A DNA stretch of 64,000 bases from an uncultured Bacteroidia bacterium. GTDB taxonomy: Bacteria > Bacteroidota > Bacteroidia > Bacteroidales > F082. The stretch lies in NCBI GenBank assembly GCA_902774295.1, contig CACYHP010000002.1, forward strand, positions 62,001 to 126,000, written 5' to 3'. Of this stretch, positions 22,679 to 25,687 are shown piece by piece. Under the pieces are notes generated by a model. It was not told the DNA's origin. It searched no databases and saw only the letters and a list, made by a program, of their open reading frames with translations. Each line of letters opens with the position of its first letter. The stretch's first letter is position 1. The translations under genes were made by a program, and so were the position numbers.

Positions 22679-22900
22679 ATGGAATACAGTATTATCATAG
22701 AAAAAAATCCAGAAACAGGGTGGTATTGCGGACAATGCAAACAACTTCCTGAAGCATTAAGCCAAGGGAAAACTCTCGATGAGCTTATGGCAAACATGAA
22801 GGAAGCAATAGAGCTTGCCATCGAATGCCGAGAAGAAGAATTGCGAGAGCAATACCGAAATCGAAAAGTGTTTCACCGAAAATTAACAATCCCAGCATGA
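22679..22900 (+). CDS. hicB: HicB-like antitoxin
   Basis: 73 aa from MEYSIIIEKN. Single-domain HicB fold: Y.IIIEKNPETGWYCGQCKQLPEALSQG then TLDELMANMKEAIELAIE. It lacks the C-terminal DNA-binding helix-turn-helix found in longer HicB proteins, so autoregulation would need another route. It overlaps hicA by ATGA (22897-22900). The antitoxin-first order suits a toxin-antitoxin operon. Confidence 0.88.
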   Translation: MEYSIIIEKNPETGWYCGQCKQLPEALSQGKTLDELMANMKEAIELAIECREEELREQYRNRKVFHRKLTIPA

Positions 22901-23094
22901 AAAAAGCCAAATTTATCAGATACCTTAACGAACATCAATGTTACGCCACTGGACGACAGAAAGGCAGCCATGCTCAGTTCAGAAATACCGAAACGATGAA
23001 ATCGACCATTGTTCCAATGCATAATGAGATTGATGACATGTTGTGCAGAAAGATTTGTAAGCAGTTGGGAATTCCTGTGGTTGGAAGTAATTGA
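22897..23094 (+). CDS. hicA: HicA-like mRNA interferase toxin
   Basis: 65 aa from MKKAKFIRYLNEHQCY. A longer in-frame start at 22825 would overlap hicB extensively and is rejected. HicA adopts a double-stranded-RNA-binding-like fold. The catalytic His is in RQKGSHAQFRN, followed by IVPMHNEIDDMLCRKICKQLGI. Degrades mRNA when released from HicB. It sits immediately before a duplicated gene end and a decayed insertion, typical accessory-DNA company. Confidence 0.88.
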   Translation: MKKAKFIRYLNEHQCYATGRQKGSHAQFRNTETMKSTIVPMHNEIDDMLCRKICKQLGIPVVGSN

Positions 23095-23107: not shown

Positions 23108-23175
23108 TTTCAAAATTTCATCAATCACCTCATAAATCTCCTCTTCCCTCTCGTAAGGATGAATCTGGAAATACG
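23108..23175 (+). repeat. 68-bp direct repeat, left copy (duplicate of the DNPH1-like gene 3' end)
   Basis: Matches 24021-24088 at 67 of 68 positions (one T/C difference). On the reverse strand it encodes the YFQIHPYEREEEIYEVIDEIL tail of the gene at 24018-24431, detached from the rest of that gene. The two copies bracket about 850 bp containing a pseudogene. Confidence 0.9.
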
Positions 23176-23187
23176 AGGGGCGGTATT

Positions 23188-23961
23188 TTACTTATTTATA
23201 AACTTTACGATACAATCAATGCAAATCGGTTGTTCCGAAATGGTATCAATGAAAACGTTGGCAGGATGCATGTCTTCAAGGTAAAGACGGTCACCAATGT
23301 AATTTATACCATTTCCGTTGTAGTTGTCACGAAAACCTTTAGCAGCAACCATTTTGTCAATTTCTTCTTTTGTGGCTAATCGTTTGCAACCGATGTATGG
23401 TTGTGTGAGAATGATTCGAAACAATTCATCGGAATCACGTGTAAAACCAATTACACTCATCGGGGTTTCAGGAAAGAGCGCATTATGCAAAACAATAGCT
23501 TCATAAGCTTTGCTGAGTGTGGAATAAATCGAAGTGCGTTCCTTAACGACAGATGTGTCGCCCGTTTTGTAATATACTTAGGCTTCTGCGCCCTGAGCAA
23601 TCATTGGTCCATAAACAGATGTCAGCAGTTTTTCCGGATTGGAGAACCAGAGACCTTTTGCTTTAGCCTATTGTTGCACCAATTCTTCCTGTTTGGCATC
23701 TATTTCCCAGTTTGCTGAGCTTCCTTTGCTTTCTGCAACATCGCCACCTGACTCAATGCTTCTTCGCGCGTAGTCGCATACGACATACGCCCCAATGAGC
23801 GGCGCACCTGCAGTGCAGAGTCCCGCATGCTCTTGTTGATTAAATCGAGTAAGATTTGTTCTTCCATTGAGTATTGCGTTTGTATATTCGTCAATTAACT
23901 TGAGTGTATGCTCAGAGAATCCATCATCTTTTATAGATATGTTTATTTGGTCTTTAAGCAT
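23188..23961 (-). pseudogene. Decayed polyvalent-protein kinase-like gene with two in-frame stops
   Basis: One reading frame runs from MLKDQINISIKDDG at 23961 to the TAA at 23188, interrupted by TAG after EELVQQ (about 23670) and by TAA after MIAQGAEA (about 23580). No frameshift separates the three pieces. The conserved C-terminal stretch (KERTSIYSTLSKAYEAI, LHNALFPETPM, LEDMHPANVFID, PICIDCIVKF) resembles the kinase-like domain of polyvalent proteins carried by phages and conjugative elements. The family name is from memory and tentative; the disruption itself is plain. A promoter-like element (23985-23992) remains upstream. It lies between 68-bp direct repeats. Confidence 0.75.
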
Positions 23962-23984
23962 AAGTCAACTATTATTTTCATCTG

Positions 23985-23992
23985 CAAAAATA
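23985..23992 (-). promoter_or_regulatory. -7 promoter-like element (TATTTTTG) upstream of the pseudogene
   Basis: Reverse-strand TATTTTTG followed by C, 24 bases before the ATG at 23961. Confidence 0.45.
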
Positions 23993-24017
23993 CATAAAAT
24001 ATTTTTTACAGACAACA

Positions 24018-24431
24018 CTATTTCAAAATCTCATCAATCACCTCATAAATCTCCTCTTCCCTCTCGTAAGGATGAATCTGGAAATACGGGTTACCCGTGA
24101 GCATGGCGGAGAGATGGGTTTTGGATTTGTTATAAAAAACATGGCACGGAATGCCGAAGCGTTCGGCGTAGGCGAGCTCATAGCCGACACCAAGCGACGG
24201 ACAGGTGCACTCACCGATGAGGAGGTCGCTCTCACGAAGCCAAGCGGTGTCCTGGTTGTAAATCTTCGAATCGCGCGCAAAACCTTGCTCTTCGAGGCAT
24301 AAGTTGCTGCCGCCGACATGCTCGGTAAGCACGATATCAGTGCGCTGTATGTAAGAAATGATGCGGTTGTAAAGGTCGGCATCAACACGACCGCCACGGA
24401 TGGAACCGGCGAAGTAGATTTTCTTTTTCAT
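24018..24431 (-). CDS. DNPH1-like 2'-deoxynucleoside 5'-phosphate N-hydrolase
   Basis: 137 aa from MKKKIYFAGSIRGGR. It belongs to the nucleoside 2-deoxyribosyltransferase fold and closely resembles animal DNPH1 (Rcl). Shared blocks are IYFAGSIRGGR, VLTEHVGG, WLRESDLLIGE and PSLGVGYELAYAE, where the Glu is the expected nucleophile. DNPH1 hydrolyses deoxynucleoside monophosphates, notably modified ones, clearing them from the pool. The ATG lies 2 bases after the methyltransferase stop, so it ends the prfB-cstA-methyltransferase unit. Its 3' end is duplicated at 23108-23175. Confidence 0.85.
   Translation of the reverse strand: MKKKIYFAGSIRGGRVDADLYNRIISYIQRTDIVLTEHVGGSNLCLEEQGFARDSKIYNQDTAWLRESDLLIGECTCPSLGVGYELAYAERFGIPCHVFYNKSKTHLSAMLTGNPYFQIHPYEREEEIYEVIDEILK
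24021..24088 (+). repeat. 68-bp direct repeat, right copy (within the DNPH1-like gene 3' end)
   Basis: The intact parent copy of the sequence duplicated at 23108-23175. Duplication of a gene 3' end flanking foreign-looking DNA is what site-specific integration leaves behind, though no integrase remains. Confidence 0.9.
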
Positions 24432-24433
24432 CT

Positions 24434-25687
24434 TTATATCTTTTTGCATAAAATCACCACCTTCTTCTCCCCTATCAAAGTCGTGCCGAAAACGTAGTTT
24501 TTATCGCTTTCCTTGAGATTGAGACTTTTTCGCAACTCGTTGGCACTCAACGGGAAATTACGTGTTGCCACAGACGCCTCGGTGATGTCACTTAACAATT
24601 CTTTTTTGACTTTTTTGTTGAACGGCGCGAAACCGACGACCTCGAAAATACGGCCCGGGAAATCGGAAATCAGGTTGTCGGAGGTGTAGAGATGGCTGTT
24701 TACATGCAATTTTTCGATGGCGAAACGCTGGGAAATCAGCTTGAATGCGCCGGATTTCATCAATGATGAATTCGGTTCATACAAATATTTTTTGATATTT
24801 GATGAAAATGTCGGAATTGCCGATTTTTCTCCTGATTCAACGAATTGAAAATTCGTTTCATCCCGTAGGGACAAGGCATGCCTTGTCCCTACGGGATGAA
24901 AATCAACACAAAAATATTTTATCTCCCCATAAAATCCCAGTTCAATCTTTACCAAAACCTCCTTGCATTCGTTTTTCACCGACACGATATGGATTTCCGA
25001 GATATTTTGCAATTCATTGGTAATCATGGAAATATCCAACATCGGGGATAATTTAATCAACATGGTGCCACCATGTTGAGACGCACGGCCGCGGGTCTCT
25101 ACGATTGAAACCACGTCGGGCGAACAATCGTGCAACGAGACCATTTTGCGGTTGTAGATATCCCTTCTGGCAGGGTCCAAATAAAGGACAACGCATGCGT
25201 TGTCCCAACGGGTTGTCTGGTTATCATATCCAGTCGGGATAAGGCATGCCTTATCCCTTAAAAAAGATTCCGCATCGGAATTAACAACCGTGATCTTTCG
25301 TCCTAAAACCGCAAAATTATGTTCCGCCAAGTCACACAGTTCCTTCTGATTTTCAACGTAATAGGATGTTTTGAATCTCTCCGATAGGAAATATGAATCG
25401 ACACCCAGACCGCCTGTCAGGTCGACAAAGACATCACCACCATTGATGATCGAGGCCTTGTATTTCGCGGTAAGTTCGGAAGAACACTGCTCTATCGAAA
25501 GATGTTTTGGGAACAGCAAATCAGGATTCGACGCCCACGACGGCACCTTTTTCGAAAGAAGCTGCCGAGCCTCTATCTGGTTAAGTACAAATGTTTTATC
25601 TACATCATCAGGAAACTTATGCAACGCCAGCTGGCGCACGTCATCCTTCAGATGCGACTCAATGAAATCCCGGGTAGCTGTATTCAT
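24434..25687 (-). CDS. Class I SAM methyltransferase with THUMP-like domain, carrying in-frame palindromic inserts
   Basis: 417 aa. The N-terminal about 85 residues are helical. The SAM-binding core begins at FVDLTGGLGVDSYFL (about 98), with YVENQKELCDLAEHNF and later LYLDPARRD. The C-terminal part resembles the THUMP-like domain of a Bacteroidota family of predicted RNA methyltransferases; the substrate is unknown. At least four near-perfect palindromes (24856-24901, 25058-25099, 25186-25205, 25236-25257) are read through in frame, adding residues such as VGTRHALSLRDE and RDKACLIP. The frame stays open, so the gene is probably functional. It starts on the last base of the cstA stop region (TGATG). 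Confidence 0.85.
   Translation of the reverse strand: MNTATRDFIESHLKDDVRQLALHKFPDDVDKTFVLNQIEARQLLSKKVPSWASNPDLLFPKHLSIEQCSSELTAKYKASIINGGDVFVDLTGGLGVDSYFLSERFKTSYYVENQKELCDLAEHNFAVLGRKITVVNSDAESFLRDKACLIPTGYDNQTTRWDNACVVLYLDPARRDIYNRKMVSLHDCSPDVVSIVETRGRASQHGGTMLIKLSPMLDISMITNELQNISEIHIVSVKNECKEVLVKIELGFYGEIKYFCVDFHPVGTRHALSLRDETNFQFVESGEKSAIPTFSSNIKKYLYEPNSSLMKSGAFKLISQRFAIEKLHVNSHLYTSDNLISDFPGRIFEVVGFAPFNKKVKKELLSDITEASVATRNFPLSANELRKSLNLKESDKNYVFGTTLIGEKKVVILCKKI
24856..24901 (+). repeat. 46-bp perfect palindrome inside the methyltransferase gene
   Basis: TTTCATCCCGTAGGGACAAG with centre GGCATGCC and its exact complement. On the coding strand it reads FHPVGTRHALSLRDE. Its TAGGGAC arm matches the intergenic palindrome at 3469-3493. 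Confidence 0.95.
25058..25099 (+). repeat. Two abutting palindromes inside the methyltransferase gene
   Basis: CAACATGGTG-C-CACCATGTTG (25058-25078, perfect) overlaps by one base a weaker GAGAC...GTCTC palindrome (25078-25099). The coding strand reads ETRGRASQHGGTML through both. Confidence 0.85.
25186..25205 (+). repeat. 20-bp perfect palindrome inside the methyltransferase gene
   Basis: GGACAACGCATGCGTTGTCC. Same centre (GCATGC) and GGACAA arm as the 46-bp element. Confidence 0.95.
25236..25257 (+). repeat. 22-bp perfect palindrome inside the methyltransferase gene
   Basis: GGGATAAGGCATGCCTTATC ending CC; centre GGCATGCC as in the 46-bp element. It lies only 30 bases from the previous palindrome. 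Confidence 0.95.

Follow-up and report, generated by a model that had tools for sequence, protein, structure and literature searches.

C-terminal module displacement by homology-facilitated illegitimate recombination (HFIR), proposed for Rhs loci and T6SS effector-immunity arrays, is a published parallel to the arrangement described here. In the passages of PMC5361080 that deal with it, a module enters the 3' end of a gene and shifts the old end together with the downstream gene, modules are stacked, and no integrase is known. The units here are alike in these points and, as in the HFIR type, the old gene end and the old neighbour are kept downstream of the new module. The new end in those passages is a different toxin domain with an immunity gene, whereas here it is the target's own conserved end with an unrelated single gene. 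CIMEs and tandemly accreted islands, such as those at ssrA in Dehalococcoides, also have copies of a gene 3' end as direct repeats on either side, and newcomers enter beside the gene and push older elements off, as outlined in the relevant parts of PMC5704250 and PMC3146451. Direct repeats likewise surround the units here at a gene 3' end. However, CIMEs are outlined there as remnants of an ICE or IME, while the unit here is one gene, of the same size in every carrier seen; none of the units holds an ICE or IME remnant, and the loci examined have no parent element at the site.

Integron cassettes are single-gene modules added beside a fixed point, with the older ones displaced, and are similar in this respect. 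They carry attC, however, whereas the cassettes here carry a gene end. An integron was rejected as an explanation: none of 99 genomes has an integron integrase over the TIGR02249 cut-off, and the tail folds no better than its shuffles (z-scores of -0.22 and 0.00 for the two strands), with no attC-like fold. The cargo gene encodes a Kinase-PolyVal domain. According to the sections of PMC5512222 on this family, the domain belongs to conflict systems found in phages and conjugative elements, and stand-alone proteins with it occur in Bacteroidetes. The proteins here have the family, the stand-alone form and the Bacteroidales in common with these; those sections describe stand-alone proteins, while the repeat-flanked unit is a feature of the present loci. 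Our searches of open-licence papers found no description of such units. We report here the unit and its boundaries, empty sites, copies in genomes with different neighbours, a second cargo, and kinase units at other gene ends. The interval is very probably a moved cassette at a gene end. The whole statement, that a compact single-gene cassette moves via tail homology with no dedicated recombinase, we consider evenly balanced, and it is the homology mechanism that lowers it to this level.

A kinase gene between two copies of a gene end

The window is a stretch of 64,000 nucleotides from an uncultured Bacteroidia bacterium (contig CACYHP010000002.1). The features of the locus are as follows.

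22679..22900, plus strand: hicB-like antitoxin gene, outside the unit; a resident next to the displaced tail
22897..23094, plus strand: hicA toxin gene (PF07927); resident neighbour, outside the unit
23108..23175, minus strand: distal tail copy, detached; putatively the older gene end, displaced by insertion
23176..24020, no strand: unique sequence of the unit (845 bp, within a repeat period of 913 bp), with GC 0.399; the window as a whole has 0.468
23188..23961, minus strand: broken stand-alone Kinase-PolyVal gene (PF18762); intact 257-aa homologues in genomes G103, G091, G080 and G035
23962..24017, minus strand: leader separating the end of the DNPH1-like gene from the start of the kinase; the same sequence in G103 and G091
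24018..24449, minus strand: DNPH1-like gene with duplicated 3' end; intact, 143 aa, PF05014 nucleoside 2-deoxyribosyltransferase domain
24021..24088, minus strand: proximal tail copy, forming the 3' end of the intact DNPH1-like gene; would have arrived with the unit

The original prediction described a 68-bp duplication, with the right copy serving as the 3' end of an intact gene and the left copy detached, and this is confirmed. Positions 23108-23175 and 24021-24088 are equal at 67 of 68 bases in direct orientation with a spacing of 913, and the 143-aa gene is intact. In a self-comparison of the window the repeat has an E value of about 9e-27 and outranks every other short direct repeat of this kind; three other direct repeats (40-250 bp, 250-3000 bp apart) have identities of 72-93%. 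It extends about 12 bases beyond the 68, with mismatches, and in G103 measures 80 bp at 86%. The name DNPH1 is a label taken from the original prediction, the domain assignment being PF05014. The hicB and hicA genes adjoin the left tail copy on its outer side, and the HicB match lies under its Pfam cut-off. The dead polyvalent-kinase gene predicted between the copies is likewise present: it is the sole gene there, matches PF18762 and contains two in-frame stops, one TAG and one TAA. The unit ends have no inverted repeats and the unit has no transposase. After the stop of the DNPH1-like gene the window unit starts with TGTTGTCTGTAA. A perfect 46-base palindrome (24856-24901) lies within the coding PG_1098/THUMP-like gene, with imperfect relatives in the same gene at 25177-25207 and 25228-25258; some relatives' matches to this gene break near the palindrome stretch.

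Against PF18762 (curated cut-off 27), the intact G103 kinase scores 113.2 bits and the window fragment 69.8 bits. Mean column identity across 19 kinase copies is 77%, which suggests a protein under constraint. An AlphaFold model of the kinase has a mean pLDDT of 71.8, with the C-terminal part largely below 50. A structure search with this moderate-confidence model gave no PDB match at E<=0.001, and weak partial kinase matches were mixed with H-NOX. Defence and phage family libraries, searched with three kinase proteins, returned nothing useful. The predicted kinase probably targets proteins of the host or of invaders during biological conflict. It had no match in viral contigs, using either a one-protein query or the 19-member alignment, and none in plasmids or phages, and a phage or plasmid source of the unit was rejected on these results. 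Viral contigs were also searched for a degenerate 38-base pattern of the tail, and none matched it exactly.

Empty and filled sites at the DNPH1 locus

The DNPH1-like protein or its tail is matched in 20 of 99 genus genomes, the window's own included. Most of those with enough sequence have the order hutH-hisS-variable zone-DNPH1-PG_1098/THUMP-like gene-cstA-prfB; in G065, creD is on the opposite side of DNPH1. The variable zone contains hicBA of two kinds, creD, a ParE-type toxin gene, HigB/HigA-like genes, a zeta-toxin-like gene, ATPases and a 233-aa-type protein with no Pfam match, together with two ORFs that we take to be HNH-like and radical-SAM-like. Short repeated units of type TGTTGTCTGTAACCAACATTTTTTA occur between zone modules (loci L036, L038, L041, L044, L048 and L049). 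Most relatives are draft metagenome assemblies, and the arrangement recurs in separate ones.

A second DNPH1 tail is found beside the first in 6 of the 20 (the window, G103, G091, G080, G035 and G005). Four of these other genomes have a unit of about 913 bp with an intact kinase at the same DNPH1 3' end, and their inserts are 98.1% (G103), 98.8% (G091), 94.4% (G080) and 94.4% (G035) identical to that of the window. G080 and G035 are 99.8% identical over the zone and are counted as one case. The genomes with the unit come from rumen bacteria. Beyond the distal tail lie hicBA in the window, the 233-aa-type gene in G103, radical SAM in G091, and creD in G080 and G035. Empty sites, which lack the duplication, are present in relatives with hicBA (G084), the 233-aa-type gene (G011, G015, G070 and G078) or radical SAM (G120 and G017) at the DNPH1 end, and the stretch compared after the gene end in G091 is common to the insert-free G120. 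Because insert-free relatives show those neighbours at the DNPH1 end, the unit was added between the DNPH1 gene and its older neighbours. The hicBA pair, initially thought to be possible earlier cargo, is a resident neighbour, as G084 has DNPH1-hicBA-hisS with no insert.

The original prediction that an element used this gene end holds in so far as a unit was added and the end was restored by a copy, the proximal copy differing from the displaced one in most carriers. The further claim that the element lost its integrase and cargo does not hold. The unit is of the same size and its kinase is intact in four other genomes, which identifies the kinase as the cargo; no integrase-bearing version of greater length was found. 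It is therefore highly unlikely that a larger integrative element decayed locally and shed its integrase and other cargo at the window site. The single broken gene between gene-end repeats and a GC content below that of the window would be consistent with such decay, but the unit of about 913 bp recurs with an intact kinase beside three other neighbours, and the kinase is unmatched in viral contigs, plasmids and phages. The window copy is a relic solely through its dead kinase; other family members are intact.

A second cargo occurs in G005, where a ParE-type gene (its match slightly below the Pfam cut-off) and a preceding short ORF lie between two DNPH1 tails in a unit of 610 bp, with the 233-aa-type gene beyond the distal tail. 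A 90% identical ParE-type module adjoins DNPH1 in G107, with different sequence directly after the stop and no second tail. Detached hicA 3' ends with no hicA body are present in 4 of 17 zones: the last 13-15 hicA codons stand beside other modules in G107, G078, G005 and G070 (L036, L038, L039 and L049). These show that gene ends are left behind more generally here.

The DNPH1 gene body is absent from the locus in G117 and G122, which retain one tail and have a DNPH1-like gene elsewhere. Deletion of the body with the tail kept is seen in L028 (G117), L029 (G122) and L026 (G091); in G117 and G122 the THUMP-like gene runs directly into the tail, followed in G122 by the ParE-type module. At another locus in G117 (L154:5820-5879), a 61-base remnant of the kinase (92%) is found immediately upstream of the DNPH1-like gene. 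Body deletions that spare the tail (G091, G117, G122) are one step of a further scenario, tandem duplication of a DNPH1-kinase segment and subsequent deletion of the second gene body. We give this almost no credence, since there are kinase-free empty sites, the neighbours past the distal tail are unrelated, the units are more similar between genomes than the gene bodies are, and no relative among 80 loci has two full gene copies around a kinase. Nor do the 80 DNPH1 loci, three of which (L103, L106 and L108) have fewer than 200 bases downstream, contain the duplication without an insert, the case that had been named as pointing to simple unequal duplication. A long second tail match in L100, also lacking an insert, was set aside as a second DNPH1-like gene, and the second match in L092 is a 17-base inverted one.

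Kinase units at other gene ends

The 700-base flanks of 30 kinase loci were compared for direct repeats; L130 and L138 have almost no upstream flank. Flanking direct repeats at E<=1e-8 were detected at 10 of the 30, representing four sites: five DNPH1 cases, L121 (G009), L135-L137 (G031, G118 and G002) and L140 (G022). The ten are non-independent, with five at the DNPH1 site and three at the end of a gene encoding 612 aa. None of 300 control ORFs (120-400 aa, from the window and loci L050-L113) has such repeats. With 900-base flanks, 2 of 30 ParE-type loci have repeats at E<=1e-8, namely the G005 DNPH1 unit and a 33-base simple repeat, and 0 of 23 HicB-type loci do, with one at 1.7e-7. These low counts indicate that the association belongs to the kinase family and not to any toxin-antitoxin gene, and repeats as a general trait of small cargo genes were rejected on them. 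The G009 repeat (111 bp at 86%) corresponds to the 3' end of a DUF454 gene (PF04304), whose detached piece may be longer, in decayed form. In G022 there is only a 38-bp repeat. The DNPH1, DUF454, 612-aa and G022 repeats have no common core longer than in shuffles in any of the six pairs.

The 612-aa gene was surveyed in 18 genomes and 20 loci, two genomes being represented twice. A kinase with two repeats is present in G031, G118 and G002, and a decayed kinase with two repeats in G021 and G028. One repeat and no kinase are found in G111, G012, G101, G082 and G094, and other cargo with the distal repeat only in G018, G092, G098 and G097. G099, G112 (where the locus ends) and G102 have no repeat, and G093 is cut by a contig end. 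The filled site exceeds the empty site by the unit plus a 60-bp repeat. Other single-gene cargo lies at the same point after the 612-aa gene with no proximal repeat (L211, L213, L214 and L215). One such cargo gene encodes a kinase from a different subfamily (30% identity). After the cargo the flank continues from the same base.

Probable exchange within gene tails

The proximal and distal tails of one genome differ at 1 of 68 sites in the window, 8 in G103, 5 in G091, 12 in G080 and 6 in G005. Compared with the proximal tail of the window, those of G091, G103 and G080 have 1, 4 and 8 differences. Since the two tails within G103, G091, G080 or G005 differ more than the proximal tails of the window and G091 do, the tail would appear to be carried by the unit and not freshly copied; on these comparisons, a carried tail fits better than fresh target duplication. 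The window's own pair, with its single difference, cannot tell the two apart and, taken alone, fits a fresh duplication or gene conversion equally well.

These differences also bear on transposition with an unusually long target-site duplication. The repeats do differ by gene, each matching its local target, and near-identical copies are found in the window and at the 612-aa gene. Yet the repeats measure 60 to more than 100 bp, the unit has neither terminal inverted repeats nor a transposase, and the G103 and G091 tails differ at 5-8 of 68 sites while their units are only 1-2% from that of the window. We regard transposition as very improbable.

When the window and G103 carriers are aligned, they mismatch along the whole gene body until immediately before the tail, then agree closely through the leader and kinase, and diverge once more within the distal tail. 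The region of close agreement begins and ends in or next to the tails. DNPH1 of G103 is 88.4% identical to that of the window, compared with 98.1% for the insert, and the sequence past the distal tail is unrelated. On the hisS tree, four kinase carriers require four changes. A single clade of carriers is rejected by hisS (AU p 1e-84) and cstA (p 3e-8) but not by hutH (p 0.26), which counts against our explanation. The three trees are mutually discordant; thus the region recombines, and none of them is the species tree.

We propose that the cassette would consist of the leader, one Kinase-PolyVal gene and the carried last 70-80 bp of the DNPH1-like gene, and would enter by recombination within the short DNPH1 tail. 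The product would be the gene body, carried tail, kinase, displaced old tail and old neighbour. A rare founding join may have placed a gene tail and cargo beside an old tail, after which the block could spread by homologous recombination via short tail homologies. We infer that the units move by means of tail homology, with no dedicated recombinase involved. No unit contains an integrase, and host recombination is consistent with integrase-free units and with repeats that have no common core; the detached hicA ends point in the same direction. On the other hand, placement of both unit ends in one 68-80 bp tail amounts to integration of a circle, for which a site-specific recombinase is simpler, and the duplicated tail begins at nearly the same position, to within about 12 bp, for the kinase and the ParE-type cargo alike. 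The cargo at the 612-aa gene with no proximal repeat (L211, L213-L215) also stands against our explanation.

It is possible, though we think it the less probable case, that the unit is a cis-mobilizable, CIME-like mini-element whose tails are attL and attR and which moves as a small circle when a recombinase is provided in trans. Insertion at a gene 3' end that is then restored, direct repeats on both sides, both boundaries within one tail and two cargoes at nearly the same point all agree with this, and direct repeats of 8-60 bp are usual for tyrosine recombinase recombination according to the part of PMC5704250 concerned. The repeats at different genes, however, have no common core. The window's own genome has three PF00589 proteins, one of them a 410-aa integrase, and none is on the window's contig. 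The other two resemble XerC and XerD. Five recombinases searched against the 80 DNPH1 loci matched seven, mostly as Xer-like proteins, and none of the four loci with two tail copies was matched. In L107 a related integrase lies 3.3 kb from a DNPH1-like gene, which has no tail duplicate. The integrase near the G122 DNPH1-like gene (L107, L155) was set aside, the region having no tail duplicate. More tentatively, the units could belong to an undescribed class of integrase-less single-gene circles of 0.6-1.0 kb that use the target 3' end as attachment site, insert at several gene ends unrelated to one another and are mobilized in trans, which would amount to a gene-cassette system lacking the integron; we hold this to be unlikely.

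Conflict kinases, toxin-antitoxin pairs and other small accessory genes differ between strains where no mobile element is apparent. At the loci described here, the shortness of the junctions and the frequency of empty and filled sites make it clear that the moving piece is one gene and a gene tail. If the tail alone suffices, as in the homology mechanism that we favour, this would explain how such genes can travel although they bring no enzyme with them. Should a recombinase act in trans, there is a cassette system still to be discovered.
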